Shown one piece after another: positions 1 through 21,419 of a stretch of 50,158 nucleotides of DNA (position 1 is its first letter; each line of letters starts with the position of its first letter). The stretch covers positions 1 through 50,158 of the IMG/VR virus record IMGVR_UViG_3300017975_000003. One strand, 5' to 3'. The notes beneath the pieces are model-generated. The model saw nothing but the letters and a program-made list of their open reading frames with translations, ran no database searches and had not been told where the DNA came from. A program made the translations under genes and the position numbers. This DNA comes from a virus.

Positions 1-518
1 CAGAGCGACATCACCGCCGCCTGCGCCGGCCCGCCGGCGAGCCTGACCTGGCCCCTCGGCTCGCCGCCCTCGCCGTCTGCGTCCACCTGCTCCAGGAACT
101 GCGGACAGGCCGCGCCCTCCCAGGCCGCGAAGCGGTCCATGAAGTCGTACAGCCGGCTGAGCAGGAGCCTCGAGCCCCGGACCTCGAAGTACGGGTAGCC
201 GTACTCGAGCCGCCCGCCGGTCCTCCTCCTGGGCCTGCGGTTGACGAACATCCCCCACGAGCCCCTGGCGTCCACGACGCCGCGCCAGAAGTGGGGGCTC
301 GTCTCGCAGTCCGCCCGGCCCTCGTGCGGGAGGACCGGGAGCGCGCGCCTCATGTCCTCGGCCTCGTCGCAGGCCGCGATCGCGCCATAGGCGTAGAGTA
401 CAATCTCCGCAAGCGAGGCCTGGCCGATCTGCTCCGACAGCAGGCCCGTCACAAAGTAGCTCCGGTGCATCGACGCCAGGTCCTCCAGCGTCGAGCGGTT
501 GACCTCGTCCAGGTTCAT
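1..518 (-). CDS. LAGLIDADG-like endonuclease-family protein, 3' part cut by window edge
   Basis: The frame opens with ATG at 516-518 and stays open for 172 codons to the left edge, so the C-terminus is missing. Around residues 77-90 it reads FWRGVVDARGSWG, the first LAGLIDADG helix in the form common in phage and chloroplast homologues. Later YPYFEVRGSRLLLSRLYDF fits the strand and helix that follow, and QVRLAGGPAQAA near the edge fits the next strand and helix. In active family members the residue before the final glycine of the motif is acidic. Here it is arginine (DARG), so this domain may bind DNA without cutting it, or cut only with a second intact half beyond the edge. The start overlaps the stop of the next gene upstream (ATGA), so the two are probably translated together. 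Not an intein, since no host protein surrounds it. Confidence 0.72.
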   Translation of the reverse strand, partial: MNLDEVNRSTLEDLASMHRSYFVTGLLSEQIGQASLAEIVLYAYGAIAACDEAEDMRRALPVLPHEGRADCETSPHFWRGVVDARGSWGMFVNRRPRRRTGGRLEYGYPYFEVRGSRLLLSRLYDFMDRFAAWEGAACPQFLEQVDADGEGGEPRGQVRLAGGPAQAAVMSL

Positions 519-793
519 AGCTCTCGCAGCCTCTGGATCGCGCGAGCCTCGGCCCCGCTGAAGTCGTAGGGCAGAGCGTGGCTGACGCGAGGGACCTCCT
601 CGAAAGATGGGCCAGGCACTTGCAGCCGGCCGGTCGCCGTCCCCGCTATCTTCTTTATCACTTGCCACTCGTGGCAGATCGAGTCGTCGCAGCCGAGGCA
701 GGGGACGACGTCGAACCCCTCCGCGTCGAGCAACGCTTGCCCGCCGTACTTCTCGATCCACTGGGTCTTCGTCAGCGGCAGTCTTCCTTGCAT
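515..793 (-). CDS. Small protein with cysteine/histidine cluster, function unknown
   Basis: A 92-residue protein starting MQGRLPLTKTQWIEKYGG. Residues about 32-42 contain CLGCDDSICHEW, a compact CxxC plus C and H group that could bind one zinc ion. No known family is recognised. It is the first leftward gene after the divergent intergenic region. No Shine-Dalgarno sequence is visible before the ATG. Instead a TAGGAT hexamer lies six bases upstream, so the message may be leaderless. Its stop overlaps the start of the LAGLIDADG-like gene by four bases, suggesting a two-gene unit. Real coding is supported by that overlap and by sensible composition. Confidence 0.65.
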   Translation of the reverse strand: MQGRLPLTKTQWIEKYGGQALLDAEGFDVVPCLGCDDSICHEWQVIKKIAGTATGRLQVPGPSFEEVPRVSHALPYDFSGAEARAIQRLREL

Positions 794-843: not shown

Positions 844-1020
844 CTCTTATATAAGGGGTCAACGCGCTCGAGAATCACTCATGAAACACCCGGAGATCAA
901 CTACCCAATGGAACAATTTGCAACAACAACAGAACAAAACTACTTAACTATGACATTGGCGGAAGGACGTCTCCAATGTCTTGAGGGAATCTCTCGAGCG
1001 CGTTGACCTCCTATATAGCA
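844..1020. repeat. 177-bp inverted-repeat element, copy A
   Basis: The ends are inverted repeats of 26 bases: 848-873 pairs with 992-1017 with one A/C mismatch and one G/T pair. The core arm sequence is GGGGTCAACGCGCTCGAGA. The element aligns without any gap to copy B at 14168-14344; identity begins at CTCT on the left and ends after GCA on the right. The interior is more diverged but keeps blocks at the same offsets, notably TTGGCGG and CTCCAATGTC. In this copy GACATTGG (952-959) and CCAATGTC (973-980) form an inner 8-bp hairpin. It could be a miniature mobile element, a structured RNA or a recombination site. Confidence 0.85.
881..1006 (+). CDS. 41-residue frame inside element copy A
   Basis: ATG at 881 and TGA at 1004-1006 lie at exactly the same offsets as the frame in copy B. 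The product begins MKHPEINYP and ends EGRLQCLEGISRAR. The copy B product ends VARLQCRDRHSRAR, so RLQC and the terminal SRAR are shared; 15 of 41 positions match by eye. The last codons are inside the right inverted-repeat arm, so part of the similarity is forced by the DNA arm. No good Shine-Dalgarno sequence precedes it. It may be a real micro-protein or only a by-product of a conserved RNA or DNA structure. Confidence 0.35.
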   Translation: MKHPEINYPMEQFATTTEQNYLTMTLAEGRLQCLEGISRAR

Positions 1021-5275: not shown

Positions 5276-5548
5276 ATGGCAGGCAAGAAGCACCCACTGA
5301 CGAAGTCGCACGAGAAGCTGAAGAAGGTCCGGGGCAGGGGCGAGGACGTGCAGCACCACCTCGCCGCCGTCTGCTACCTCCGCTCGTTGGAGACGGAGCT
5401 CGACGCGGTCACCCGTGAGATCCACAAGGCATGCGTCGCCCTGGACACCTCGAAGGAGTACCGCAAGTTCACGCGGCACGCCGACCATGCGCAGCAGCGG
5501 CTGCACCAGACGATCAAGAAGGTCACGAAGAAACTCGACAGGAAATGA
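5276..5548 (+). CDS. Small basic helical protein, function unknown
   Basis: A 90-residue, lysine- and histidine-rich protein (MAGKKHPLTKSHEKLKKVRG; C-term TIKKVTKKLDRK) with a predicted helix-rich fold. Ribosome binding site AGGAGAAGG precedes the ATG. It overlaps the following gene if that gene starts at 5545. It may bind nucleic acid, but this is only from charge. Confidence 0.65.
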   Translation: MAGKKHPLTKSHEKLKKVRGRGEDVQHHLAAVCYLRSLETELDAVTREIHKACVALDTSKEYRKFTRHADHAQQRLHQTIKKVTKKLDRK

Positions 5549-5550
5549 CA

Positions 5551-6627
5551 ATGAAACTTATAGCAATAATGCTGCTAGCCTTGCTCTTGACTGCCGGCAG
5601 CCTGCCCCTGACGACAGTATCAGACACGCTCGTCAACAACGCCGGCTTGCCGTTCAGCGGAATTTTGCTAGTGTCGTGGCCAGCTTACTCAGTGTCAGGG
5701 CAGACAGTGCAGGCGGGGTCAATGAGCGTATTTGTGCAAGGCGGCGTGCTGTCGCTGAAGCTCGTGCCGACCGACCAGATGACATGCGCCGGGCCTTGTG
5801 TCTATACCGCGCAGTGGAACGGCGCCATGACGACTTGGGTGGTCCCGACGTCGGCGTCGACGCTCACTCTTTCGCAGGTCACAGCTTCGCCGCTTACCGG
5901 CATTGGCTATATCCAGCTAGGGAGCGCCGCGTACACTCCGGCCGGCGTCACCGGTCTTGGAGTCACAGGCGTCTCGTCCGGCAGCTACATGCAGATTCAA
6001 GTGCAGAACTTGAGCGGCACGACCGGCAGCAGCGATCTCGTCGCCACCGCGAACGACGGCAACGACTCGGCGCATTACATTGACCTCGGCATAAACAGCG
6101 CGGGCGGAGCCAGCAGCCCATTCACCAACCCTCACGCTGGATATCTGTACCTACAAGACTCAGAGTTCGACATCGGTGCCCTCGGCGCCTCGTCTCCGGC
6201 GATAAACTTCTGGCTCGGCAGCACGCCGGCTCAAGTGGCTACTATCTCCATGGCGGGGATCGCCGCCCAAGCGCTGGCCGGCAGCTCGACTGGATGGGCT
6301 GCGGCGGTCGGCGCCGCGGCCGGAGCGTCCCCCGGCACCCCAGCGTGCGTCGCTTCGCACGTGTGCGACTCCTTGTCTGGACAGATCGGCTTGACAATGG
6401 GCACGGCGACGACGACAACTGGAGTCATCTTGACGGTGACGCTCAACGGAACCGCGCGAGTCAATCTGCCGAACTGCGTGGTTGAGGCATGGCTCTCTGC
6501 CTCGCCGTACACACCTCTTGCAGTATCTCCGACGGTCACGACGTCATCAGTCTCATTTCAAGTGACTGGCACCGCCGCGGCCACGTCCACCGCGTATACT
6601 TTCTCTTATGTCTGTGGAGGCCAATAA
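5551..6627 (+). CDS. Secreted fibre-like protein with Sec signal peptide
   Basis: A 358-residue protein. Residues 1-18 (MKLIAIMLLALLLTAGSL) form a clear signal peptide. A beta domain follows (LPLTTVSDTLVNNAG ... ILLVSWPAYSVSG ... VPTSASTLTLSQV). It is matched by a similar domain in the protein at 32686-33900. The C-terminal half has YMQIQVQNLSGTTGSSDLV, then NDSAHYIDLGINSAGG and a GYLYLQ stretch, the pattern of a tail-fibre or appendage domain common in phages. A signal peptide on a virion-type protein is odd; the product may act in the envelope, for instance in receptor masking, instead of the virion. ATG at 5545 is an alternative start, overlapping the previous stop. Confidence 0.75.
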   Translation: MKLIAIMLLALLLTAGSLPLTTVSDTLVNNAGLPFSGILLVSWPAYSVSGQTVQAGSMSVFVQGGVLSLKLVPTDQMTCAGPCVYTAQWNGAMTTWVVPTSASTLTLSQVTASPLTGIGYIQLGSAAYTPAGVTGLGVTGVSSGSYMQIQVQNLSGTTGSSDLVATANDGNDSAHYIDLGINSAGGASSPFTNPHAGYLYLQDSEFDIGALGASSPAINFWLGSTPAQVATISMAGIAAQALAGSSTGWAAAVGAAAGASPGTPACVASHVCDSLSGQIGLTMGTATTTTGVILTVTLNGTARVNLPNCVVEAWLSASPYTPLAVSPTVTTSSVSFQVTGTAAATSTAYTFSYVCGGQ

Positions 6628-6629
6628 GC

Positions 6630-8399
6630 ATGCCCACCTCGTACGTCACCGGCCCGCTCGAGAACTCGAGCATCAACGATCCCGGCTACTCGCAGACGAT
6701 GCCGCAGCCAGCAGATGGGTCGTTCGCTCCGCAGCCGGTCGACCAGTCCAAGCTGCGCGGGATCGCCATCCCGGACGGGTGGCGCAGCCCCACGATCAAG
6801 CAGCTCAACCAAGAGAACCCGCTCTACACTGACGTCAAGGACGACTGGATCAAGATGTCGATGCTGTACGAGGGCGGGCACGTGATGCGCAAGAACTCCA
6901 CCCAGTTCCTGCTGCGCCGTCCGCGCGAGCTGCAGGAGGTCTACCAGGCGCGCGTCGACCGCTTCACCTACCACAACATCCTCGGCACGTGCTTCGGCTG
7001 GTACAGGGCCGCAATGTTCAAGAACCCGCCGACCATCACCATGAAGACCGTCGGAAAGGACGGCCAGCCGGACGGCAAGGACTTCCCCAAGGACCTGGAC
7101 TCATTCTACATCGAGTTCCGCAAGAACTGCGACCGCAAGAAGACCAGCCTCGTCGACCTGATGCGCGAGGTGTGGACGTCGCTCGCCCTCTACAAGTGCG
7201 CCTACGTGCTGGTAGACACGCCTCGCGACGACGGCAGCAAGACGCTGCGCGAGCAGAAGCAGAAGGGCGTGCTCGACCAGTTCGGCCGGCCGTCGCCGTA
7301 CCTGGTGACGTATTCGCCGGTGAGCGTCATCAACTGGGACTGCGACCAGTACGGCAACCTCGACTGGTGCGTGCTCGCCTACCAGGACACGACCAGGCAG
7401 TTCGTGCAGACGCAGAAGGTCGTCGACACGTGGTACTACTTCGACCGGCAGATCTTCCTCAAGTACCAGCGCGTCCGCAAGCCCGGCGAGTCCGAGATCA
7501 CCAAGGTCGACGAGACCGACCGCGCGACGCTGGTCGACGCCGGCAAGCACGCGATGTCCCAGGCGGGCGTGGTCCCCCTGCTCAAGTTCGAGGTGCCCGA
7601 CGGGCTGTGGCTCACCAACAGGGCCTACCTGCCGGTGCTCGACCATCTCAACCAGGACAACTCGTACGGCTGGGCGCTATACATGGCGAACCTCGCCATG
7701 CCGGTCGTCACGAGCGACCAGGACATCAAGCCGCAGCTCTCTGAGACAGGCTTCATCCAGCTGCCGACCGGCGCGAAGTACGAGTGGTCGGAGCCGGAGG
7801 GCAGGTCCTTCCAGCGGTCGGCCGAGCGCGTCAGGGAGCTCCGCGAGGAGATCTTCCGCGCCATGTACCTCAGCTACCAGGGGCGGACCTCAAACGCCAC
7901 GGCGGACGGGGCGAGCGGCGCGTCCAAGGAGATGGACATGATGCCGGCGCAGGACGTGATGAACGAGTACGGCGACGTCATCATCGCGGCGGCGCAGCAG
8001 CTGATGGACGCCGTGGCGCAGGCCAGAGGAGACCTGGCGGTGCGGTCCGACGTCCGCGGCATGAAGTTCGGGAAGACCGCGAGTCTGGAGCAGATCCAGA
8101 AGACCGAGGCCGTCCTGAGTCTGGGCGTCCCCAGCGACACCTTCGAGAAGGAGGTGTACAAGCAGTCGGCCGCCGAGTACCTGCCGGACGCCAACCCCGA
8201 GACCATGGAGAAGATCAACGATGAGATCGACGCCGCCCCGAGCGACGAGGAGAAGGAGCAGGCCCAAGCCAAGCAGCGCCAGCAGCAGTACGCGCAGAGC
8301 ATGACTCAGGCCGTCGCCGCCTTCAACCAGGCGCCGCCGCCGGTGACCCCGAAGAAGCTGAGACAGAACAGGGCCGCCGCGCTCACGAGCGAGGCGTAA
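6630..8399 (+). CDS. Portal protein
   Basis: A 589-residue protein between terminase and scaffold genes, as expected for the portal, the twelve-subunit ring through which DNA enters the head. ATG at 6630 follows a GGAGG site. The central region (NILGTCFGWYRAAMFKNPP, SLVDLMREVWTSLALYKCAYVLVDTP) fits the wing and clip of DUF4055-like portals. A long helical segment follows (RSFQRSAERVRELREEIFRAM). The C-terminus (KEQAQAKQRQQQYAQSMTQ) is glutamine-rich and probably coiled. Position and size make the call strong even though portals are poorly conserved. Confidence 0.88.
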   Translation: MPTSYVTGPLENSSINDPGYSQTMPQPADGSFAPQPVDQSKLRGIAIPDGWRSPTIKQLNQENPLYTDVKDDWIKMSMLYEGGHVMRKNSTQFLLRRPRELQEVYQARVDRFTYHNILGTCFGWYRAAMFKNPPTITMKTVGKDGQPDGKDFPKDLDSFYIEFRKNCDRKKTSLVDLMREVWTSLALYKCAYVLVDTPRDDGSKTLREQKQKGVLDQFGRPSPYLVTYSPVSVINWDCDQYGNLDWCVLAYQDTTRQFVQTQKVVDTWYYFDRQIFLKYQRVRKPGESEITKVDETDRATLVDAGKHAMSQAGVVPLLKFEVPDGLWLTNRAYLPVLDHLNQDNSYGWALYMANLAMPVVTSDQDIKPQLSETGFIQLPTGAKYEWSEPEGRSFQRSAERVRELREEIFRAMYLSYQGRTSNATADGASGASKEMDMMPAQDVMNEYGDVIIAAAQQLMDAVAQARGDLAVRSDVRGMKFGKTASLEQIQKTEAVLSLGVPSDTFEKEVYKQSAAEYLPDANPETMEKINDEIDAAPSDEEKEQAQAKQRQQQYAQSMTQAVAAFNQAPPPVTPKKLRQNRAAALTSEA

Positions 8400-8409
8400 G
8401 GAGAAGACG

Positions 8410-8892
8410 ATGGCTATCACGCATGACGAAGAGAAATTACAGGACCTGGCGGAGCAGTGGCAGACTGCCCTGCGGCTGCGCGACTGGGACGTGGACGTGC
8501 GGCTGGCACGGGCGAAGGACATGTCCGGCAAGGGCGACAAGGGCGAGTGCAGCTACAACCTCGCCAAGAAGCACGCGGTGGTCAAGATCCTCGACCCGCG
8601 CGACTACAAGGACGACTTCGCGGAGCAGGACCACGAGTACACGCTGGTCCACGAGCTACTGCACCTCCACTTCGCCGGCCTCGACGCCGCGGTGACCGAC
8701 GGCAAGCTGGCCGACCTGGTGCTGGAGCAGGGCATCCACGCGTGCGCGACGCTCATGACAGAACTGCTTCGCGCCATGCAGGCCGCGCAGGCCGTCGCCG
8801 GCGCCCCCGCCGAGCGGGCCGAGGAAGTCGCGACAAGCGCCCGCAAACCTCGTCGGAGGGCTGCCAAACAGCAGGAGAGCGCGACGGTATAA
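8410..8892 (+). CDS. Putative zinc metalloprotease of the head module
   Basis: A 160-residue protein with the zincin motif HELLH at residues 81-85 (TLVHELLHLHFAG) and a possible third ligand Glu106 in LEQGIH. The N-terminal part (LRDWDVDVRLARAKDM, then AVVKILDPRDY) is the layout of small phage metallopeptidases. It sits between portal and scaffold, so it may be the prohead protease that removes scaffold or trims head proteins. A SprT-like or toxin-type peptidase is an alternative. The C-terminal tail is basic (ARKPRRRAAK). Ribosome binding site AAGGAGAAG precedes the ATG. Confidence 0.75.
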   Translation: MAITHDEEKLQDLAEQWQTALRLRDWDVDVRLARAKDMSGKGDKGECSYNLAKKHAVVKILDPRDYKDDFAEQDHEYTLVHELLHLHFAGLDAAVTDGKLADLVLEQGIHACATLMTELLRAMQAAQAVAGAPAERAEEVATSARKPRRRAAKQQESATV

Positions 8893-8893
8893 T
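8888..8893 (+). promoter_or_regulatory. Candidate -10 box before the scaffold gene
   Basis: A perfect TATAAT overlaps the last codons of the metalloprotease gene. The context GACGGTATAATTCGAAGT resembles the sites before 1149 and 34525. The start point would fall near 8900, giving a short leader with GGAG six bases before the ATG at 8911. Confidence 0.5.
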
Positions 8894-8910
8894 TCGAAGT
8901 GGAGCGCGGG

Positions 8911-9762
8911 ATGAGGAGCGACACAGCGACCGATCTTAAACGACGCGCAAGTGCGCCGCGCTCGATAGTGGCCGAGCACCCTCTCGGGAGAGGACATGAG
9001 CACATGTTCGACAGATATCGCATGAGAGCCGACGGAGACGGCCCGAGTCTTCTGGACGTGAAGACCGGCGGCAAGGGAAAAGGAAGCAAGGACGGCGCGA
9101 AGGGCGGCGTCTCGAAGAAGCGCGTCAACAAGATCGTCAACAACGCGATCGCCAACCTCGTGAAGGGTAGCCAGCTGTCCGACGCAGTGAAGTCCGTCAT
9201 GGCGCCGCTTCTGAAGGACCTGAAGCCAGGCGCGACGGACAAGACCACGACCACGCCGACGGAGCCTCAGCCCACCGACGTGAAAGGCCTGTCGCCCGAG
9301 GCGAACGCCATCATACATGAGCTCCAGCGACAGAACAAGGAGCTCAAGTCCCAGGTGACGGGGCTGGCCGACGACAGCAAGGCGAAGGAGGCGCGAGCCC
9401 AGAAGGCCGAGACCGACAGCGCCATCGAGACCGCCCTCAACGACTACACGTTCACCTCACCCGGCGCCCGCGAGACGGCCAAGCGGCTCATCGCGATGGA
9501 GGTCACCCGCACCGAGGACGGCAAGCTCCTGGGCGGCGGCGACCTCCCGCTGACGGACTTCGTGAAGGAGGCCTTGACGACGAAGCACGACTACTTCCTC
9601 GCGTCCGCAGAAGTTGGCGGCGCCGGGGCAAGCAAGGGCATCACTCGCAACTCGGCCGGCGTGGGCCTGGAGACTATAAAGAGAGACATGACCGAGGCCG
9701 ATCGGCAAGCAGTGACGGCCGAGATCGGACGCGCCATCCAGGCGGCTCAGACGCAGTTCTAA
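8911..9762 (+). CDS. Capsid scaffolding protein
   Basis: A 283-residue protein immediately before the coat gene. Residues about 60-90 are lysine- and glycine-rich (TGGKGKGSKDGAKGG). The middle is a coiled coil (ANAIIHELQRQNKELKSQV then AKEARAQKAETDSAIETAL). The C-terminal part (PGARETAKRLIAMEV, LTDFVKEALTTKHDYFLAS) has the usual layout of scaffolds of P22-like coat proteins. The scaffold templates the procapsid and then leaves. Start choice is open: ATG at 8911 follows GGAG, while ATG at 9004 follows AGAGGA and gives 252 residues; a GTG at 8899 is also in frame. Confidence 0.8.
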   Translation: MRSDTATDLKRRASAPRSIVAEHPLGRGHEHMFDRYRMRADGDGPSLLDVKTGGKGKGSKDGAKGGVSKKRVNKIVNNAIANLVKGSQLSDAVKSVMAPLLKDLKPGATDKTTTTPTEPQPTDVKGLSPEANAIIHELQRQNKELKSQVTGLADDSKAKEARAQKAETDSAIETALNDYTFTSPGARETAKRLIAMEVTRTEDGKLLGGGDLPLTDFVKEALTTKHDYFLASAEVGGAGASKGITRNSAGVGLETIKRDMTEADRQAVTAEIGRAIQAAQTQF

Positions 9763-9793
9763 CGTAAACGTTCTCTAAGGAGGGGCATACGTA

Positions 9794-10696
9794 ATGCCCG
9801 CAATCACCTCTAGCAACGTCGCGCAGGCCATCGTGAAGCTTGTAGCTTTCGACGCCCTGCCGGCACTCGAAGCGAACCTCGTAATGGGTCGCCTGGTCAA
9901 CCGCAACTATGAGGCCAGCCTGGCTCAGACCGGGGACACCGTTAACGTCCCGATTCCCGGCGTGATGGTGGCCAACAACATCGCCGAAGGCGGCACTGTA
10001 CAGACGCAGAATCCCGCCCTCGGCAACGCGCAGATCGTGCTCAACAAGCACCTCGAAGCCACGTTCCAGATCCCGGACGTGACGAAGGTTCTCGCGTTCC
10101 CCAACCTCTTGCAGCAGTATATGCGGCCGGCCATCATCGCGATCGCCACGCAGATCGAGACCGACCTCATCAACTTGTACCCGAACCTGACGGCCATATC
10201 GGCTGTTGGAACCGGCGGTGCTGGCCTGGCCTCCGAGGCGGTTATCGACTCCGCCGAGAAGTCGCTCTTCAAGGCCCTGGTGCCTGAGTCCATCCAAAAG
10301 TACGCCGTGGTCTCGCCGGACGCCTATAGTGACCTGCGTCAGATCGGCCGCTTCACCGAGGACCGCATCACCGCGGGCGCGGGTCAAGCAATCGCCAGTG
10401 GCCAGGTCGGCAAGCTGAAGGGCTTCCTGTTCTTCCGTAGCCAGCTGGTTCCCAAGATTGCTGGTACGACCTACAACATCGGCTTCGCCCCGGACGCCTT
10501 CGCGCTGGTCACCCGCCAGCTGCCGCAGCCGCTTCCCGGCACTGGCGCCATCGCCCAGTACGTGAACGAGGGCAACTTTGGCCTGCGCATCGTGATGAGC
10601 TACGCGCCGGGCACTCTCGCGCAGCAGTTCACCGTGGATGTCCTGTACGGCGTGGCCGTGCTTCGCAACGTCTTCGGCCTCCAGATCCTGAGCTAG
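9794..10696 (+). CDS. Major capsid protein, P22-coat family
   Basis: A 300-residue coat protein with a very strong ribosome binding site (AAGGAGGGG). MPAITSSNVAQAIVKLVAFD at the N-terminus, then LVNRNYEASLAQTGDTVNVP, and later HLEATFQIPDVTKVLAFPN are typical of the P22 gp5-like HK97-fold family. The C-terminus is GVAVLRNVFGLQILS. It is slightly shorter than P22 coat (430), as in many siphovirus relatives without a large inserted domain. Codon choice is less G+C-extreme than in neighbours, consistent with high expression. Confidence 0.92.
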   Translation: MPAITSSNVAQAIVKLVAFDALPALEANLVMGRLVNRNYEASLAQTGDTVNVPIPGVMVANNIAEGGTVQTQNPALGNAQIVLNKHLEATFQIPDVTKVLAFPNLLQQYMRPAIIAIATQIETDLINLYPNLTAISAVGTGGAGLASEAVIDSAEKSLFKALVPESIQKYAVVSPDAYSDLRQIGRFTEDRITAGAGQAIASGQVGKLKGFLFFRSQLVPKIAGTTYNIGFAPDAFALVTRQLPQPLPGTGAIAQYVNEGNFGLRIVMSYAPGTLAQQFTVDVLYGVAVLRNVFGLQILS

Positions 10697-10747
10697 TCTT
10701 AACAGCCGTCGAATGGAGGGGCTTTATCTCCGTCCGCTACTCCGATC

Positions 10748-10770
10748 GGGCCGGCGGGAAAGTCCGGCCC
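10748..10770 (+). promoter_or_regulatory. Hairpin downstream of the coat gene
   Basis: GGGCCGG at 10748-10754 pairs with CCGGCCC at 10764-10770 around a nine-base loop. There is no T run, so it is more likely a weak terminator, RNA processing or message-stabilising structure after the coat gene than a full terminator. Confidence 0.4.
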
Positions 10771-10796
10771 CGAATCACCCAGACAAGGGAGACTAC

Positions 10797-11276
10797 ATGG
10801 ACGTAAACGAGTTCTACGCAGAGAAGAAGAAGGCACATAACCGACTGGTGAAGGAGCTGCTGGCAGGCAAGTATCCTGGACAACCGGATCCCGAGGACTA
10901 CTTCAACGAGGAGACTGACGAGACAGAGAAGCGATCGACGGCCGTGTACATGACGTCGGTGCGCAAGCGTGAAGCGGGCACGGTCGCCGGGCACGTGTGC
11001 CTCGTCGAAGTATACGATCAGAAGGGCAACGCAGGGCTGGCAGCCGAGCGCATCGCGGACGGCACGCATCGCGTGTCCACCGAGGATGAGATCCGCGCCT
11101 ACCTCAAGCGGCAGTACGAACAGAAGGTCCTGCACGACAAGCTGGACGCGCGGCGCGAGGTGAAGAAGACGCAGCAGGTTGATGCCAACTACCTGAACGA
11201 GATGCCGGTGCACTTGCGGCAGTTCGAAGGCAAAGTCGAGGAGACAACTCCTCAATCACGGGCCGGCAAGCGGTAG
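10797..11276 (+). CDS. Head-module protein, function unknown
   Basis: A 159-residue, highly charged protein (MDVNEFYAEKKKAHNRLVKE ... LNEMPVHLRQFEGKVEE). ATG at 10797 follows AAGGGA. Mixed alpha/beta in the middle (TVAGHVCLVEVYDQKGN) and a long charged helix later (DEIRAYLKRQYEQKVLHDK). It sits between coat and decoration-like genes, so a head completion or assembly role is possible. No family is recognised. Confidence 0.65.
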   Translation: MDVNEFYAEKKKAHNRLVKELLAGKYPGQPDPEDYFNEETDETEKRSTAVYMTSVRKREAGTVAGHVCLVEVYDQKGNAGLAAERIADGTHRVSTEDEIRAYLKRQYEQKVLHDKLDARREVKKTQQVDANYLNEMPVHLRQFEGKVEETTPQSRAGKR

Positions 11277-11316
11277 CGCGGCGGCCCACAACAACGATTT
11301 AAGGAGCATCTAAGAA

Positions 11317-11955
11317 ATGTCTCAGCTCAACATCGAACTGGCGACCCAGTTCACCATCCAGGCGCCGTCCACCGTGACGGCCGCGACCAATGCCAGCCCG
11401 ATCGCAATCACCACTGCGGCGAACCACGGCCTCAACACCGGCGACATCGTGCAGGTCACTGGCTCGACTGGCAACACCGCGGCCAACGGGCAGTTCGTCG
11501 TGACCAAGACCGGCGCGACGACTTTCACCCTCAACAACAGCAACGGCAACGCAGCGTGGGTGTCCGGAGGCACCGTCACCCACATCGGCCACTCCACTGC
11601 TACCCCGCTGCTCGTCGACAACACCGTGTTCGCCACGGCGCCCTCGGTCACACTGCAGGCGCGGATCGAGAGAGTCAGCGCTGGCAACACTCGCGTGGTC
11701 TTCGAGGACGCAGCCGACTCTGCCTTCGTCACAGCAGAACCTCTCGCCATGATCCAGTCCACTGGCGCGATCGGCGCGACCGGCCCCGGCGTGTACGCCG
11801 GGCAGGCCGGCCAGTATGACAAGATGTTCACGGCGAAGTACCCGGACATCCCGGACTTCCGCGTGGCTGCCTCGGGCGACAACCTCCGCCTGAAAGTGTT
11901 CGCCAGCGGGGGCACGGGCGCCGTGGTGCAGTACTCCGGCTGGCTGCAGTACTAG
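11317..11955 (+). CDS. Probable head decoration protein with E1-FCCH-like module
   Basis: A 212-residue protein following the coat gene, with ribosome binding site AAGGAG. Residues about 20-92 form an E1-FCCH-like beta module (TAATNASPIAITTAANHGLN, GDIVQVTGSTGNTAANGQF, TTFTLNN, AWVSGGTV). The same module occurs in the tail tube and tail-tip proteins of this phage. The rest (LLVDNTVFATAPSVTLQARI ... VFASGGTGAVVQYSGWLQY) looks like a beta-rich virion protein. It probably coats the capsid surface; a head-fibre is an alternative. Confidence 0.65.
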   Translation: MSQLNIELATQFTIQAPSTVTAATNASPIAITTAANHGLNTGDIVQVTGSTGNTAANGQFVVTKTGATTFTLNNSNGNAAWVSGGTVTHIGHSTATPLLVDNTVFATAPSVTLQARIERVSAGNTRVVFEDAADSAFVTAEPLAMIQSTGAIGATGPGVYAGQAGQYDKMFTAKYPDIPDFRVAASGDNLRLKVFASGGTGAVVQYSGWLQY

Positions 11956-12045
11956 CCCAAGCTTCCGGGCGCCGACTGTCCGCGAGCAGGTCTTGAGTGA
12001 CCTCGCGGCTGATCCGGCGCCCGGACCCGCATAGGAGCGAACGCT

Positions 12046-12132
12046 GTGACCAGGACGATACGAAACGCCACCAGCCTGATGGTCGCGGCCATGATCGTGA
12101 TGTGCGTCGCGCTCCTGATAGCGAAAGGATAG
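12046..12132 (+). CDS. 28-residue single-membrane-span peptide
   Basis: A GTG start preceded by AGGAG nine bases upstream opens a 28-codon frame ending five bases before the next gene. The product is basic at the N-terminus (MTRTIRNATS) and then hydrophobic (LMVAAMIVMCVALLIAKG), a clean single transmembrane helix. The frame and ribosome site fill what is otherwise an unexplained 180-base gap. No homologue is known to me. It may be a small membrane peptide or a chance frame. Confidence 0.5.
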   Translation: MTRTIRNATSLMVAAMIVMCVALLIAKG

Positions 12133-12137
12133 GGACG

Positions 12138-13151
12138 ATGCTCTGGACTGACACCTACATCGTGACAACGGCGGACTTGCTGACCATCGACCCCGAGGTC
12201 GGGGACGTGGCCACGGCAGAGAGCATTACCGTCGACGGCTCGACCGGGATCGTCCAGCGGACGTACGAGGCGGCCAGCCAGCAGCTGCTCGCGCAGATGC
12301 AGCGCTTCGGCGGCTACCTCTCGTCCGGCCTCGTCAGCGCGAACCACCTCGCGGCCGTGTTCAACGTCGGCGGCCCAGGCGTGAACCGCACCCGTGTGCT
12401 GCTCGGCCAGATCATAGCCTTCGACCCCTACAACCCGCTGGTCAAGACTTGGCTGTGCTACCGGACCCTCGAGAAGTTCTTCCACGCGGCCTTCTCGCGC
12501 ACCATGCAGGACCGCTACGAGAAGAAGATGAAGCAGTACGCGACCGATGTGCGCAACGAGTTCTGGCCGAACGTGAAGAACGCCGGCTTGCCCGTTGTCT
12601 ACCGACCCATGCCCTGCCCCGGCGCCGTGAATGAGCGTGTGCCCGGCGGCTTCTCTCAGCTGCAGAGCGGCACCTGGTCGGCGGCCAACGTGACCACCGC
12701 GGCGAAGGCGGGGACGACGGGCGGGACGTTCGACGTCGCCGTCACCTACGTCGACCAGACCCTCTACGTCGGCCCGCGGACCAAGACCAACGCAGAGTCT
12801 TACACCAGCGCGCGCATCACCCAGGTGGTGGCCGCGGGACAGGCCCTGCAGATCAACATCTCCTCGCTCACGCCCCCGAACGCCGGCAGCGACCCGGCGA
12901 TGCTGCCGAGCGCGCTGACCACACCGCTGAACGCCAGCGGCTGGAACGTGTACGTCGGGCAGCAGGGCGGGACGCTGTACCTGCAGAACGCCTCGCCGAT
13001 CCCCTGCCTCGGGGCGTCGGTCGGGTCCGCGTCGATACTGCAGCCGGTCTACACGCTGGCCGGCGACCCGGTGCTGGCTGGGTACGCCGCGGACTACGGG
13101 CAGTACGCGGACGCTTATTTCACGATTCAGGACCTGATCCAGCGCGGATAG
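12138..13151 (+). CDS. Structural protein, probable head-tail or neck region, function unknown
   Basis: A 337-residue protein between the decoration-like and MuF-like genes. ATG at 12138 is preferred over the upstream frame, which overlaps the small membrane peptide. The N-terminal half is helical (TYEAASQQLLAQMQRFGGYL, RTLEKFFHAAFSRTMQDRYE). The C-terminal half holds an Ig/FN3-like beta stretch (GTFDVAVTYVDQTLYVGP ... GWNVYVGQQGGTLYLQ). It is followed by a strong terminator. No exact family is assigned. Confidence 0.7.
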   Translation: MLWTDTYIVTTADLLTIDPEVGDVATAESITVDGSTGIVQRTYEAASQQLLAQMQRFGGYLSSGLVSANHLAAVFNVGGPGVNRTRVLLGQIIAFDPYNPLVKTWLCYRTLEKFFHAAFSRTMQDRYEKKMKQYATDVRNEFWPNVKNAGLPVVYRPMPCPGAVNERVPGGFSQLQSGTWSAANVTTAAKAGTTGGTFDVAVTYVDQTLYVGPRTKTNAESYTSARITQVVAAGQALQINISSLTPPNAGSDPAMLPSALTTPLNASGWNVYVGQQGGTLYLQNASPIPCLGASVGSASILQPVYTLAGDPVLAGYAADYGQYADAYFTIQDLIQRG

Positions 13152-13253
13152 CCAGCTATGACTTTGAAACCTCGCCACGGAGCTCGAAACTCTACCGCGG
13201 GGCGTTCTGCGATGTCTCCCACTACCGCGGACTCCTTCTCCCCGCGGCTCTCC

Positions 13254-13290
13254 CCGGGGGCGGCCACTGCCAGGCCGCTCCCGGCTTTTT
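13254..13290 (+). terminator. Rho-independent terminator after the neck gene
   Basis: A 12-bp stem (13254-13265 with 13273-13284, one G/T pair) with a seven-base loop is followed by CTTTTT. This is a good intrinsic terminator within the late unit. The next gene starts 18 bases later with no promoter seen between, so read-through must supply it. Confidence 0.75.
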
Positions 13291-13307
13291 CGTCTTAGGC
13301 GGTCACC

Positions 13308-14165
13308 ATGGCTCTCGACGACATCATCAAGCAGCACGACGGCGAGGTGGACGCGCTGGTCAACCACTTCAAGGACCAGCTCGAGAAGATGCTCGCCAAG
13401 GCGCAGGCCAACGTGCAGGCGACGCTCACGAGCAAGCTGACGTTCGACGACAGGGGGAAGATCGAGCAGACCTCGTCCAACCGCTCGCAGCTGCGCCGCA
13501 TGGACGACATGCTGAACGAGGAGCTGGACGAGCTCGGGCTGCAGGACCTGATAGACGCCTTCGTCCACCAGTTCGGCGGGCAGTTCAAGTACTTCAAGCA
13601 GGTGCTGGAGCAGACGCTCGGCAAGGCGCGCGCCGACAAGCTGGACGCGCTCAAGTTCACGGTCGACGACCAGAAGGTCTTCTCGATGATGCAGGCGGAC
13701 GCCGCCGAGAACCTGGAGGACATCGTCGGCCAGGCGGGGGACGACGTCAGGCGGCGCACGCTCATGGGCATGGGTGGGATGACGGCGCGAGACCTGGCCG
13801 AGACCATGACCGAGGTGGTCGCGAAGACGGCCGGCTACGCGAAGACCGAGGCCACCACCGCGGTCAGCTCGTTCTACCGCACGCTGGCCAAGACCAGCTT
13901 CCAGAAGATCGAGGAGGACGACGACTGGGAGATCACCTACAGGTACGTGGGGCCGGGGCCACTGGACCCGGTCGAGCGGCCGTTCTGCCGGCACCTCATG
14001 ACGCAGTCGCTAGCGGGCAGGACGTGGACCTACGACCAGATCGAGGACATGGACAACGACCAGCTGGACGACGTCTTCGTTACGGGCGGCGGCTACAACT
14101 GCCGGCACCAGTGGATCGTGGCGGACATGCGACCGAGCAAGAAGCAGCTGGAGGACGCCGACTGA
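13308..14165 (+). CDS. MuF-like minor head protein
   Basis: A 285-residue protein. The N-terminal two thirds are helical and charged (DEVDALVNHF-like start, then QVLEQTLGKARADKLDALKF). The C-terminal part has the signature of the SPP1 gp7/Mu gpF morphogenesis family: RYVGPGPLDPVERPFCRHLM, WTYDQIEDMDN and TGGGYNCRHQWIVADM. Such proteins travel with the head, sometimes entering the host. It usually neighbours the portal; here it lies after the coat gene. The region right after its stop is filled by element copy B. Confidence 0.82.
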   Translation: MALDDIIKQHDGEVDALVNHFKDQLEKMLAKAQANVQATLTSKLTFDDRGKIEQTSSNRSQLRRMDDMLNEELDELGLQDLIDAFVHQFGGQFKYFKQVLEQTLGKARADKLDALKFTVDDQKVFSMMQADAAENLEDIVGQAGDDVRRRTLMGMGGMTARDLAETMTEVVAKTAGYAKTEATTAVSSFYRTLAKTSFQKIEEDDDWEITYRYVGPGPLDPVERPFCRHLMTQSLAGRTWTYDQIEDMDNDQLDDVFVTGGGYNCRHQWIVADMRPSKKQLEDAD

Positions 14166-14167
14166 GC

Positions 14168-14344
14168 CTCTTATATAAGGGGTCAACGCGCTCGAGAGAA
14201 ACCCATGAATCAGCAGGGAGCCAACGGGCCAACGGAGCAGGGGCCGAAGAACATGAGCAGAAAGGAGATGCAGGGGGAGTTGGCGGTAGCACGCCTCCAA
14301 TGTCGCGATAGACATTCTCGAGCGCGTTGACCCCTTATATAGCA
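14168..14344. repeat. 177-bp inverted-repeat element, copy B
   Basis: This copy has a perfect 26-bp inverted repeat: 14172-14197 pairs with 14316-14341. It starts two bases after the stop of the MuF-like gene and ends two bases before the ATG of the next late gene, so it fills the gap between them exactly. It aligns gaplessly with copy A. Inside it AATGTC (14299-14304) pairs with GACATT (14311-14316); in copy A the partner of AATGTC lies on the other side, so the inner hairpin has switched position. A 41-codon frame occupies the interior. Confidence 0.88.
14205..14330 (+). CDS. 41-residue frame inside element copy B
   Basis: ATG at 14205 and TGA at 14328-14330 match the offsets of the copy A frame. 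The product begins MNQQGANGPTEQGPK and ends VARLQCRDRHSRAR. Compared with copy A the middle has diverged strongly while start, length, RLQC and the terminal SRAR are kept. A weak GAGAG lies before the ATG. It lies on the late strand and would be transcribed with the head genes. Whether it is translated is unknown. Confidence 0.38.
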   Translation: MNQQGANGPTEQGPKNMSRKEMQGELAVARLQCRDRHSRAR

Positions 14345-14346
14345 AG

Positions 14347-15054
14347 ATGCCTTCCATCGAACTAAGGTGCCGGTCAGGCAGGCTGCCGGAGCAGGTGCTC
14401 GTCGAGCTGCAGGCGGCGCTGACGCCGAACGAGTCGGACATGTCCCTGGCCGGGCAGCTGGTCCGGTCCGAGATCCGGCTGGACTGCGAGCGCGGCGTCG
14501 ACGTCCACGGCGTGCCGTTCCACCCCTACTCGACGGACCACCCCTACTACTACAACGCAGGCACGTGCGGCGGTAAGTACGACAAGGAGACCAAGGGCGC
14601 CTCCAAGCGGATGAACACCAGGCTCACGAAGGCCGGCGTGACGACGGGTGGGGTCTCGAGCACGGGCCGCACCGTCAAGTTCGCCAGCTACGCCGCGTTC
14701 AAGGCGGCGTTCGGCCGGCCCAACGTCGACCTCATGGGGGTGCAGGCGCCGCACATGCTCGACGCGATCGTGGTCGTCGTCAACGGCCACACGATGGGCG
14801 GGGCTGTCGGGGACGACGAGACGTTCTCCGAGGAGCGAGACAATGGCATGGCCACATCCCCCGCCACGCAAGTCCAGATAGGGATCTATGACACAGAGGC
14901 TGCCGAGCGGGCATCAGGCCACAACAATGGAACGAAAACCCTGCCACAGCGGCAGTTCTTCGGCATCTCAGATGGAGCTCGGGTGCAAGTTCGCGACATG
15001 CTGCAGCGTCGGCTGATTCAACGTGCTCGGCGAGCGCTGCGCGGGGGAGCGTAA
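14347..15054 (+). CDS. Neck/tail completion protein of the virion morphogenesis type
   Basis: A 235-residue protein whose ATG is two bases after element B. Motifs SDMSLAGQLVRSEIRLDCER and GVPFHPYSTDHPYYYN at the front, GVQAPHMLDAIVV in the middle, and then SGHNNG and LPQRQFFGISDGAR near the end match the HK97 gp10/Mu gpG-like virion morphogenesis family, which finishes the tail end that joins the head. No Shine-Dalgarno sequence is seen next to the ATG, since the element's right arm lies there; the element may therefore govern its translation. Confidence 0.72.
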   Translation: MPSIELRCRSGRLPEQVLVELQAALTPNESDMSLAGQLVRSEIRLDCERGVDVHGVPFHPYSTDHPYYYNAGTCGGKYDKETKGASKRMNTRLTKAGVTTGGVSSTGRTVKFASYAAFKAAFGRPNVDLMGVQAPHMLDAIVVVVNGHTMGGAVGDDETFSEERDNGMATSPATQVQIGIYDTEAAERASGHNNGTKTLPQRQFFGISDGARVQVRDMLQRRLIQRARRALRGGA

Positions 15055-15063
15055 GATAGAGTC

Positions 15064-15603
15064 ATGGCATCGATCGTATCGCCGAGCTTCACAGTCCGCA
15101 GCGTGGTGCAGGGCCTCCTGTCGAGCGCGACGCTCGGCTTCAACGCGAACTACGCCGCGAGCCTGGCGAACTACCCCGGCGCCCTGCCGATCAGCATCGA
15201 CTTCGCGGCCGCCAAGCCGATGAGCTTCTTCCTCGGCCGCCTGGCCATCGAGGACATCGTCGAGAGCGGCGCGTTCAAGTTCCCAGTCATGTCGCTGTAC
15301 ACGACCGCGGGCGCCAACCAGAACATGCAGAAGTTCCAGAAGTTCGCCGGCCTGGTCCGCGTCGGCGTCGACGTGCACCTGAGCTACAAGACCAGTCAGG
15401 CGCGGATCGTGTTCGAGGCCTGGCCGGATGCCGTCGAGGACGCGATGTACACGACGTTCAACCAGGCCGCCGCGCAGAACTGGGGGTCGGGCGTCGTCTA
15501 CAACGGCCAGCTCGGCTTCGAGCGCCGGCAGGTGCGTCGCGGGGCAGAGAACTGGCTACAGACGTTGTACTTCCAGGCCACGTTCGAAGCGATCATCACG
15601 TAG
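15064..15603 (+). CDS. Probable tail terminator or neck protein
   Basis: A 179-residue protein between the virion-morphogenesis-type gene and the tail tube gene, the usual place of the tail terminator. Sequence features: LLSSATLGFNANYAASL, ISIDFAAAKPMSFFLGRLA, and a C-terminal LQTLYFQATFEAIIT strand region. No direct family motif is recognised; the call rests on position, size and mixed alpha/beta pattern. Confidence 0.6.
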   Translation: MASIVSPSFTVRSVVQGLLSSATLGFNANYAASLANYPGALPISIDFAAAKPMSFFLGRLAIEDIVESGAFKFPVMSLYTTAGANQNMQKFQKFAGLVRVGVDVHLSYKTSQARIVFEAWPDAVEDAMYTTFNQAAAQNWGSGVVYNGQLGFERRQVRRGAENWLQTLYFQATFEAIIT

Positions 15604-15614
15604 GCGGAAGATCG

Positions 15615-15620
15615 TAAAAT
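15615..15620 (+). promoter_or_regulatory. Candidate -10 box before the gene at 15643
   Basis: TAAAAT in the context GATCGTAAAATAAATGAAG follows the stop of the preceding gene. It fits the other internal late boxes. A purine-rich ribosome site (GAAGGAGAG) follows, and the GTG start comes after it. Confidence 0.35.
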
Positions 15621-15642
15621 AAATGAAGGAGAGTGCGTCGTC

Positions 15643-15939
15643 GTGAAGAAATACATTTTCGTGGGGGCCGTCAGCCACGTGGCCGGCCTGGAGTACAACG
15701 CGGTGGGGCAGAGCGCGGACTTCTCCGACGAGTACTTCGTCGAAGCGCTGGCCGGCGGGGCGTCGTTCCTGCCCGAGGACCGCTTCGCCCACCACTTCGA
15801 AGGCTTCCCGCCGGAGCAGCTCGCTCAGTACAGCGACCCCTACTTCTTCGGGGTGCCGTCGAGCGACTACACCGCCCGGGTCGAGGCCTGCCGGGACGAG
15901 GTGCGGGCGCTTCGCGCCGAGCTGTGCAAAGTAGTCTAA
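15643..15939 (+). CDS. Hypothetical protein, 98 residues
   Basis: GTG start with GAAGGAGAG upstream. The product begins MKKYIFVGAVSHVAGLEYNA and is acidic, with many aromatic residues (DEYFVEALAGG, DPYFFGVPSSDY) and a C-terminal helix (RVEACRDEVRALRAELCKVV). It could be a small tail-region protein, but no family is recognised. Confidence 0.65.
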   Translation: MKKYIFVGAVSHVAGLEYNAVGQSADFSDEYFVEALAGGASFLPEDRFAHHFEGFPPEQLAQYSDPYFFGVPSSDYTARVEACRDEVRALRAELCKVV

Positions 15940-15966
15940 CGTTATCTCGACTCTTAGGAGCAAGCA

Positions 15967-17193
15967 ATGTCTTACGCACTGAGTAGACTCGAACACCTGT
16001 ACCTCCAGGTCGAGACTACGTACGGGCAGATCCCCAACACCACCGGCACGGCGACGGTCGCGAACGCGAACGCCTGCCGGTTCATCAAGTTCGTCGGTGA
16101 TACGCGCGCGGCGCTGATCGACCGGCCAGACAAGACCGGCACGCGGTCCCTGATGGTCGGCGTGCTCGGCCGCAAGCAGGGCGCGTGGTCGACGGACATG
16201 TCGATCGCCCCGAACGGCGTGGCCGGCACGGCCCCCGACATGGACCCGCTGATGCAGATGCTCTTCGGCCAGGCCGGCTCGGCGACGTCCGGCTCGGCGA
16301 CCATCACGGCCGCCACCAACGCCACGCCCATCGTGGTCACGGCCGCCAACACCTTCGCGAACGGTGACGTGGTATTCATCTCTGGCGCGACGGGTAACAC
16401 GGCTGTGAACGGTGTCTGGTGCTTGACTGCCGTGTCTGGCACTGGCTTCACTCTTGTTGGCTCGGCGGGCAACGGCGCGTGGGTGTCCGGCGGAACGGCC
16501 TCACGCGTGGCGTACAAGTACACGTTGTCAGACAGTATCGTCTCTGCATCGCTATGGTCTTTCCGCCAGCCGTCCACCATCGATCAGCGCGTGGCGCTCG
16601 GCTCAGTAGTGTCCGAGGCGACCTTCCAGCTGGGGCAGGACGTCGCGCAGTGCTCATTCAATGGGGAGGCGTTATGGACTTTGTCGTCCAACCAGTTCTC
16701 CGTCGCTGACGTCATCCAGCAGGGCGGCCTAACGGCGTTCCCGACGGAGCCATCGGCGCCGGTGACCAACGGCGGCATGATCGCCGGCTTCACCGGTAAG
16801 ATCGCGGTCAACGGCAACGGAGTCGCCACCATCCGCACGGCGACCGTGCGATGCCAGACGACCAACGTGCTGGTTAAGGACACCTTCGGCTCATATTACC
16901 CGACCAGCGCCGAGGCTGACGCGCGCAGGATCAGCGTACAGTTCTCCATCTACGAGGACGACAGCGCCACGTTCCAGAACCTCTTGACCATCGCACACAG
17001 CAAGACGCCAGTGCAGATTCCCCTGTTTCTCGGGACTGTGAGCGGCTCGATTTTCGGCCTCGTGCTGAACAACGTGCAGATAGCGGCGCCCACCCGCGAG
17101 GAAGCGCGACGCTACAGCGGCAACTTCCCGGAGAGCGTCGCCCACGGCTCCAGCTTGACGACGCGCGACGAGTTGACAGCCTGGTTTATTTAA
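15967..17193 (+). CDS. Major tail tube protein with inserted E1-FCCH-like module
   Basis: A 408-residue protein with ribosome site AGGAG. The N-terminal part (SYALSRLEHLYLQVETTYGQ, IDRPDKTGTRSLMVGVLGRK) and the C-terminal part (YPTSAEADARRISVQFSIYE, TPVQIPLFLGTVSG, NFPESVAHGSSL) together resemble phage tail tube proteins, which stack in rings around the tape measure. Residues about 111-178 are an E1-FCCH-like module (TITAATNATPIVVTAANTFA, AWVSGGTA) inserted within the tube fold and probably exposed on the tube surface. The module's DNA is richer in T than the flanking tube sequence, which suggests later insertion. Confidence 0.8.
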   Translation: MSYALSRLEHLYLQVETTYGQIPNTTGTATVANANACRFIKFVGDTRAALIDRPDKTGTRSLMVGVLGRKQGAWSTDMSIAPNGVAGTAPDMDPLMQMLFGQAGSATSGSATITAATNATPIVVTAANTFANGDVVFISGATGNTAVNGVWCLTAVSGTGFTLVGSAGNGAWVSGGTASRVAYKYTLSDSIVSASLWSFRQPSTIDQRVALGSVVSEATFQLGQDVAQCSFNGEALWTLSSNQFSVADVIQQGGLTAFPTEPSAPVTNGGMIAGFTGKIAVNGNGVATIRTATVRCQTTNVLVKDTFGSYYPTSAEADARRISVQFSIYEDDSATFQNLLTIAHSKTPVQIPLFLGTVSGSIFGLVLNNVQIAAPTREEARRYSGNFPESVAHGSSLTTRDELTAWFI

Positions 17194-17208
17194 GAACATT
17201 AGCAAAAG

Positions 17209-17239
17209 CGCCTGGTCAGACTCAACCCCTGGCCAGGCG
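17209..17239 (+). terminator. Hairpin after the tail tube gene
   Basis: CGCCTGGTCAG (17209-17219) pairs with CTGGCCAGGCG (17229-17239), eleven pairs including one G/T. No T run follows, so it is a weak or rho-assisted terminator, or a message-stabilising end for the abundant tube message. Confidence 0.5.
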
Positions 17240-17272
17240 AAACCCTCCAACCCTTCCCCTCAACCCCCGCGG

Positions 17273-17278
17273 TAAAAT
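17273..17278 (+). promoter_or_regulatory. Candidate -10 box before the tail chaperone gene
   Basis: TAAAAT in the context CGCGGTAAAATTTAATCGAG stands out in a C-rich stretch. It lies between the tube-gene hairpin and the AAGGAG ribosome site of the GTG-started chaperone gene, so it could restart transcription there. Confidence 0.45.
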
Positions 17279-17299
17279 TTAATCGAGAAGGAGATTTTA

Positions 17300-17809
17300 G
17301 TGTACATATTCAAAAAGACGACGACGATCAAGAGCGAGGTGTGCCCTGGCGTCGAGTTCGTTGTGCGGAAGATGACCGAGAACCGGCGCATCGAGCTACA
17401 GATGGCAGTGCTCGGGCCAAACGAGAAGATCCGCGGTCTCGTCACGCAGGCCAACCAGCTGAAGGCTGAAGACCCGGAGGACCGACGAAATCTGTCGGCT
17501 ATTCTCAAAGTCAACGACGAGATGCAGCACGTCATCACGAAGGAGCTCAACCCGGTGAAGATCCGCTGGGGCATCGTCGCCGTCAAGGGCCTGGCGATCG
17601 GAGACGAGAATGAGCCTGGCACGGTGGACAACCTTCTCGAATGGCCCAGCGACCTCGTGGAGGAGGCGCTGAGTATCATCGAGGCAGGTGCTGGGATGTC
17701 GGAGAGAGAAGCAAAAAACTTCGGGTCGGCTATCACTTTTGGCGAAGTGATGGCCGCGCGTCCGGCCAGTATGACTGCGACACCTGCCGACGCGACAAGC
17801 GCTTCGTAA
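17300..17809 (+). CDS. Tail assembly chaperone, short form (gpG-like)
   Basis: A 169-residue protein from GTG at 17300 with AAGGAG six bases upstream. It begins MYIFKKTTTIKSEVCPGVEF and has the acidic, helical character of chaperones that coat the tape measure before tube assembly (LVTQANQLKAEDPEDRRN, LEWPSDLVEEALSIIEAGAG). It lies directly before the tape measure gene, and a -1 frameshift signal near its end leads to the longer form, as in lambda G/GT. The stop at 17807-17809 ends the unshifted product. Confidence 0.88.
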   Translation: MYIFKKTTTIKSEVCPGVEFVVRKMTENRRIELQMAVLGPNEKIRGLVTQANQLKAEDPEDRRNLSAILKVNDEMQHVITKELNPVKIRWGIVAVKGLAIGDENEPGTVDNLLEWPSDLVEEALSIIEAGAGMSEREAKNFGSAITFGEVMAARPASMTATPADATSAS

Positions 17810-18174
17810 CAAGGAACTGCCGGAAGTTCAAGGAGTTCCTGCCGCTGTACGACGCGCGCAAGCCAGACTGGTGGGCGCCGTCGTACAAGACCGCGAGAGG
17901 GACGATGTTCACGGTGCCAGACGTCAGATCGAACGAGTGTCCAGTGTCGTGCGTCACCAGACAGACACACGAGCTGATTCAGATCTACCACCGAGCCAAG
18001 TCCCTTCAAGACGCCGGCGTCTCCTCGTTCAGCGCCAAGGACATGCCGATTCCCCTGGCGGATGCCTTCGTCGTAATAGGCGGCGAGGAAGCGAAGTACG
18101 AGAGCGTCGCCAGGGACTACGCGGAGTATGACACGAAGTACACTAACGCTCACGACCAGGGAAGAAAGCAATGA
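17300..18174 (+). CDS. Tail assembly chaperone, frameshifted long form (gpGT-like)
   Basis: Ribosomes slipping back one base at 17713-17719 leave the first frame after 140 codons and continue in the -1 frame (LRVGYHFWRSDGRASGQYD) to TGA at 18172-18174, giving about 291 residues. The T part contains CDTCRRDKRF and a nearby RNC, a small cysteine group that might bind metal. The T frame has no good start of its own and overlaps the tape measure ATG by four bases. In lambda the T part recruits tail tube subunits to the tape measure. The annotation should be read as a joined frame: 17300-17719 then 17719-18174. Confidence 0.85.
17713..17756 (+). promoter_or_regulatory. -1 programmed ribosomal frameshift signal
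   Basis: The heptamer A AAA AAC (17713-17719) is in the correct phase for simultaneous slippage in the first frame. After a seven-base spacer, 17727-17738 (CGGCTATCACTT) pairs with 17745-17756 (AAGTGATGGCCG) in a 12-bp stem with one G/U pair and a six-base loop (TTGGCG). Slippery sequence, spacing and stem are all canonical. Confidence 0.92.
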
Positions 18175-21100: not shown

Positions 21101-21419
21101 AACGCCCTATGGCGGTTACACTGTCACTGACGCGACCGAGTACCAGAACCAGGTGACGGGCGACTACTTCAAGACGCCGGGGTCTGTGGCGCCCGGCGAC
21201 TACATCGGAATGCCTGGTCAGCAGGTGACTCCGAGCATGGTCCCCACGTATCAAGCAGCTAGCAGCGGCGGGCAGACAGTGGTCAATATGACTGTGCACG
21301 CCATGGACAGCCAGAGCATCGTGGACCGCTCCCACGACATCGGCATGGCCATCTACAAGGAGTTGAATGCTGGCGGCGCATTGGGATTACGAATACAACA
21401 GACTGTCTTCGGAGCGTAA
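18171..21419 (+). CDS. Tail tape measure protein
   Basis: The 1082-residue product is the largest helical protein here and directly follows the tail chaperones. Its length sets tail length; at the usual 0.15 nm per residue it predicts a tail near 160 nm. Residues about 110-140 are a hydrophobic patch (FIASLGPVGPALAKAFSVVA, IIGILEMLPELY). Residues about 150-540 are long charged coiled coil. Residues about 680-920 are small and hydrophobic (alanine/glycine rich), which fits a segment that enters the host membrane. The start overlaps the chaperone T frame (ATGA). Confidence 0.93.
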   Translation: MSDISDLELAVKVRVEGQQALESTANSTRALGAAAKSESSSIDGLAGESRQLNAAVTQLNASLAGTSTHLGSVGGATKHAASEMAEARHAIRGLGEEIGVSMPRFVSSFIASLGPVGPALAKAFSVVAIIGILEMLPELYNKFEEFVDKLGGLTERMRKQNVALVEQSNKAQIEALGNAEKLRDLNTVGVEGSAKVALQLQNMSASAREYGQALRQAMKTLEDARAHEAEFYKFSISADKKRAEEEVDRAQAQVDRLTEETRRRAVNSPERRQLAASIAVQVADERRATQEAAASAGKSLQLAQLDEYKKTIEQMRSLRMITEDQETDELKKQADARAKIENDYAKQVYQIKSQRPGANRALLAEELKDEQDAAKQKADATKRELDLGQQIRDRDRALSAQSAKQATEREVEDIQVGAQKAAAARQSAYTTHMLQTTSKPGREVDTIQQTYNAAISLSDELQAREQVRIDQEQEWADKQTEVLKYIEAQGKVQLDREKLIADVQARRDEARITAEEKIADLQKKRIDEAKSEAERLYDAIRGGPGGVQKFVLDTTRNLEKGMFVNLLSNGPGGGVMGSALNSMSSAIPGQRNADGTNSFLGSLLQGTMFGQRTPTSILKVQPPVPVVDSSVKFDADSTTLTPDIAARKDNTKAIGDLTSAVNALDAVLTGRQASLINGGVTPLNYTPASDAASPAAVAATNATGAAAATASAAAASASSSQTQAVNSIGAMMSLLTLGGSIAAAVTQNQSPGIRVVQGPGQGRSGQQAYPYGSSIWADIPLADKVAIGGLAATAGFGALSKTGVLSQLQGSSSSVMSALGNFGAGFALGPTQGLGTINSSTGQITGGVIGAWTDPNISTSQAIGQTAGLAAGVTGGVMSAIKGFSQGGGRGITSGIASVAGTAAMLDPEPISKGILTAVAAVGGIVKDLFGDPKAERQRDITNTLAQNQFIAPPTVNGVQSLGGNDLAYNKYGKFMATPYGGYTVTDATEYQNQVTGDYFKTPGSVAPGDYIGMPGQQVTPSMVPTYQAASSGGQTVVNMTVHAMDSQSIVDRSHDIGMAIYKELNAGGALGLRIQQTVFGA

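Follow-up and report, generated by a model that had tools for sequence, protein, structure and literature searches.

The reading that we favor, although we hold it with somewhat less than even confidence, is that two 177-base segments of an uncultivated tailed phage are copies of a short non-coding MITE-like inverted-repeat element that settled in one phage lineage and is now a fixed intergenic hairpin, probably acting via its RNA stem. The window analyzed here is the whole 50,158-base stretch of IMG/VR record IMGVR_UViG_3300017975_000003. Gene calls, made with a simple script and not a trained gene finder, divide it into a rightward block (approximately 1149 to 37620) with terminase, portal, major head, neck, and tail genes and a leftward block (approximately 50121 to 37858) with helicases, primase, RNA ligase, and DNA polymerase A; a further leftward gene lies at 515-793 (minus strand). 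The RNA ligase gene of the replication block (42636-43655, minus strand) belongs to Pfam PF09414 and PHROG 548, and a gene for a Band_7/SPFH-domain protein (33916-34452) is found among the late genes. Copy 1 of the element (844-1020, plus strand) is flanked by the leftward gene 515-793 and the rightward operon, i.e., at the junction of the two divergent gene blocks; the operon opens with a small-terminase-like gene (ATG at 1149), 128 bases after copy 1. About 21 bases (CCCAGACGTCGGTCTCCGTCG) are duplicated in tandem at 1038-1080, adjoining copy 1 on the right in the leader of the terminase operon. Copy 2 (14168-14344, plus strand) is located between the gene at 13308-14165 and the neck-protein gene (ATG at 14347), 2 bases right of the stop codon of the former and 2 bases left of the start codon of the latter. 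Both copies are thus intergenic, and copy 2 sits within one co-directional gene block, a single operon; since it occupies the space between a stop and a start codon there, it is probably transcribed.

The original prediction described two elements that align with no gap over 177 bases, and this holds: 119 of 177 positions are identical (BLAST E value 4.8e-18). The 26-bp inverted ends ascribed to both copies are perfect in copy 2, in which the left arm (14172-14197, plus strand) pairs with the right arm (14316-14341, minus strand). For copy 1 the description was slightly overstated, as the left arm TATATAAGGGGTCAACGCGCTCGAGA (848-873, plus strand) is complementary to the right arm (992-1017, minus strand) at only 24 of 26 positions, with a longest uninterrupted perfect pairing of 17. 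Between copies, 28 bp of complementarity link the copy-1 left arm to the copy-2 right arm. The element measures 170-177 bp and carries TATATA at both ends; the GC content of its interior is 42% in copy 1 and 59% in copy 2 (genome 64%). A conserved inner motif common to copy 2, TTGGCGGAAGGACGTCTCCAATGTC (956-981 in copy 1, plus strand), could form a short hairpin. When 2.97 Mb of other loci served as background (arms within 300 bp, low-complexity filter), perfect arms of at least 17 bases were found in just two other distinct inverted repeats, a rarity that excludes chance as the origin of the pair. A 25-bp inverted repeat was also seen in an unrelated phage contig (L279, 9088-9338), where it flanks an intergenic, AT-rich array built of repeats like GATACCACT. 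The properties listed for bacterial MITEs are small size, terminal inverted repeats, TA ends, AT-richness, intergenic location, and the absence of a protein (PMC2229807), and the phage element shares them, being below about 200 bp, bounded by terminal inverted repeats with TA ends, A+T-rich, non-coding, and intergenic. This likeness is one of architecture, and movement by a transposase with target duplication is a defining part of a MITE; therefore we name the element MITE-like and not a MITE.

Conservation between the two copies is uneven, as the prediction of differences mainly inside had it: from left to right, identity is 30/30 over the left 30 bases, then 26/42, 10/40, and 26/35, and about 28/30 at the right end. 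All four arm copies are nearly identical, and just outside the arms both copies carry CTCT on the left and GCA on the right. The central 40 bases have the identity level of unrelated sequence and yet the same length in both copies. This contrast between ends and center exceeds the decay of a recent duplicate; the ends are held, or repeatedly recopied, while the center is free. A saturated center at constant length is odd for copies decaying neutrally, which counts against our favored explanation. A diversity-generating retroelement pair was rejected, as the changes extend beyond adenines and no reverse transcriptase was seen among the scanned proteins.

The copy-2 site can be followed in relatives of the phage. 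Head-protein identity is 87% for L058 and L059 and at most 68% for every other relative. L059 is syntenic with window positions 5276-22613 and so includes the copy-2 site, at which it carries a diverged homologue (L059 8280-8460) of nearly equal length. The genes on either side are the same two as in the window, with proteins 58 and 60% identical, and anchor points placed in them are 267 bases apart in the window and 268 in L059. The whole-element alignment of L059 beat 1000 of 1000 shuffles with copy 1 and with copy 2 separately, and in the comparison with the window the right end beat 5000 of 5000 shuffles and the left end 4964 of 5000. Marks common to L059 and the window are the flank CTCTT, AAGGG, ATGAAACA approximately 31-33 bases from the left end, TTxGCGGAAGG approximately 51-52 bases before the right end, and GCGYGTT with CCCC after it. 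Pairing between the two ends of the L059 element is weak (157 of 5000 shuffles were as good), and their arm sequence differs from that of the window. A blind search with a profile of the two window copies did not find the L059 site; therefore the homology rests on the site fixed by synteny together with the single-site tests. The neck gene starts no more than about 10 bases from the right end of the element in the window (14342-14347) and in L059 (8454-8464), and neither phage shows a recognizable ribosome-binding site for it. Elsewhere in the syntenic region, the stretch 5548-6627 of the window, with a gene from about 5551 or 5734 to 6627 flanked by conserved neighbors, is missing at the L059 counterpart and is, as judged from the sequences, a cassette gained or lost recently.

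In the more distant phages L124, L078, L063, and L138 the two flanking genes join without such an insert. With L059 occupied and these four lacking the insert, it was gained before the window phage parted from L059 and after both parted from the others, unless the latter lost it; copy 2 is thus an old resident of one lineage. The window copies resemble each other more than either resembles L059, which suggests that copy 1 (or an exchange between the copies) is younger. None of the relatives extends over the copy-1 site; those given by the terminase search were at most 44% identical, and a protein search with the neck gene alone gave no match. At the copy-2 site, relatives other than L059 are too diverged for a target duplication or a close empty site to be read. 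An arm-like match in L296 (16279-16306) was dismissed as chance, since it falls within protein-coding sequence that is syntenic with the window.

Searches for further copies were made with exact and gapped arm patterns and BLAST, and no further true copy was detected in IMG/VR, phage records, or a collection of 84,980 species genomes (one genome per species); a plasmid search with copy 2 gave none either. Matches to 16 arm bases in 51 viral contigs were lone arms without TATATA or a partner arm, and the 12 matches that the gapped arm pattern gave among viral and species genomes had asymmetrical arms; we regard both sets as chance. The gapped pattern covers near-identical arms only, and within that range no chromosomal element matched. 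Thus the element has two sites in one genome and none elsewhere in the collections searched. No transposase, integrase, invertase, or tyrosine recombinase was recognized among the scanned phage proteins, which counts against our favored reading, as does the lack of further copies in IMG/VR and the species genomes; many accepted MITEs have no known autonomous partner. The miniature mobile element among the originally proposed options fits in architecture. The refuting condition set for it had a mixed outcome: L059 holds its homologue at the same fixed site and no copy at a new site was found in relatives, but a second copy is present elsewhere in the same genome.

At the RNA level, the predicted folding of the two window copies gave z scores of -8.4 and -7.3, owed mostly to the arms, and folding and duplex energies indicate an exceptionally stable stem in both. 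The plus-strand RNA of L059 is not unusually stable, and taken together with the weak pairing of its ends this means that a conserved hairpin function is not supported there. For the window phage we propose the following course. The element would have entered the junction of the head and neck genes before the window phage and L059 separated, and a later copy would have arisen where the divergent gene blocks meet. Once transcribed, the arms may pair into a double-stranded stem of 26-27 bp. A perfect stem of this length is long enough for an RNase III substrate. We would expect host RNase III to cleave the stem and part the upstream from the downstream messages, as has been reported for the Correia/NEMIS elements; by this analogy, our best guess for the function is a hairpin of the late message that serves for processing or as a boundary.

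The structured RNA that had been offered as another option stands as far as the closing stem is concerned; inside it, helices are at best weakly above shuffles. A structured or trans-acting small RNA within the inverted repeat, comparable to the inter-inverted-repeat transcript of PLE satellites, which sets a precedent (PMC7567579), is in our view improbable. Consistent with it are the conserved inner motifs adjoining each arm and one interior helix, CCAAY/RTTGG, in which the copies differ by a paired change. A consensus fold of the three copies has 14 pairs with paired changes, compared with 6.4 in shuffles, a count that is suggestive, the fold being fitted to the same three rows, and a covariation test needs more than three sequences. 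Against such an RNA, in addition to the weak interior helices, no Rfam family reached the gathering threshold in the window, with just sub-threshold matches of chance level around the elements. The snoRNA-like scores in L059 were weak and far below threshold, and a search for tRNA or tmRNA found none. When the element was compared on both strands with the phage's 50 gene leaders, complementarity did not exceed that of shuffles, and an antisense RNA to gene leaders was rejected on this ground. A protein product fares worst. The predicted internal frame does have the same start, stop, and length (41 codons) in both copies (881-1006 and 14205-14330, plus strand), and RLQC and SRAR are kept as described; the final residues SRAR are encoded by the arm, and RLQC falls within a DNA motif common to the copies (CGYCTCCAATGTC). 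Differences at codon positions 1, 2, and 3 number 13, 18, and 20, with no marked third-position excess; dN/dS, the check proposed for the frame, is 0.83 for the whole frame and 0.67 minus the arm codons (Nei-Gojobori), and in L059 an ATG at the equivalent place meets a stop at codon 17, as read from the sequence. No coding constraint is seen in either copy, and we rejected the micro-gene flanked by inverted repeats, to which we give almost no chance.

Other readings keep the element as DNA or keep it moving. An active MITE family, mobilized in trans by a transposase from the host or a co-infecting source and inserted independently at each site, would have arms alike through transposase recognition and a drifting center; the invariant arms against a free center, the TA at both termini, and two unlinked copies in one genome agree with this. 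We nevertheless consider it unlikely, as the phage, plasmid, and species-genome collections hold no donor element and no further copies, the occupied site in L059 makes copy 2 not recent, and the CTCT and GCA shared outside the arms are unexpected for random insertions. Somewhat less probable again is a phage-intrinsic DNA control site at which a protein bound to both arms would keep the loop between them at a fixed length, for example in transcription or replication control at the divergent junction and the neck genes. Fixed arm sequence and spacing around a free center would suit it, as would the place of copy 1 between the leftward and rightward gene blocks, but copy 2 is inside one operon, the L059 arms differ in sequence, and no sigma-70-like promoter (and no intrinsic terminator) was found around either copy; we know of no protein that binds the arms. 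We think it rather improbable, more so than the small RNA, that the element is a lineage-specific hairpin cassette, with arms kept identical by function or concerted exchange and a loop diversifying at constant length, giving a processed RNA or a DNA loop of variable sequence with its own role in the infection cycle. Invertons (invertible promoters) are intergenic segments between long inverted repeats, and the phage element resembles them in its long, nearly identical inverted arms around an intergenic segment adjoining gene starts. An inverton-like switch with the arms as recombinase sites is nonetheless very unlikely: no invertase or tyrosine recombinase was found among the scanned proteins, no promoter-like sequence was seen in the interior, and the inner motifs have the same orientation in copy 1, copy 2, and L059.

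Among known systems, the closest in architecture to our favored MITE-like hairpin are the Correia elements (CREE/NEMIS) of Neisseria, which also have 26-bp inverted ends, TA termini, an intergenic location, and, as predicted for the phage element, a hairpin transcript (PMC2649163, PMC2229807). Correia elements are 153-157 bp long and are cleaved by RNase III when their ends are symmetrical (PMC2649163). They differ from the phage element in arm sequence, in their known target duplication, and in their number, with more than 100 copies in bacterial chromosomes compared with two phage copies and one diverged homologue here. The mycobacteriophage elements MPME1 and MPME2 are likewise very small, have inverted ends, and occupy different genomic sites in tailed phages (PMC3029335, PMC4351075), but they are about 440 bp long, encode a protein of 123 residues, and have demonstrated empty sites; the phage element, at 177 bp and with no constrained frame, was not assigned to them. 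The PLE transcript is similarly non-coding between inverted repeats and has been suggested to be a domesticated MITE (PMC7567579); it has antisense homology to gene leaders, which was not found for the phage element. Non-coding inverted-repeat elements of small size are well documented in bacterial chromosomes; for tailed phages, the literature searched gave little apart from the protein-coding MPMEs and the PLE transcript. Phage genomes carry little spare DNA, and a pair that resides there, its arms invariant and its loop free, would lend itself naturally to testing whether elements of this type are parasites, control hairpins that have been domesticated, or a combination of the two.
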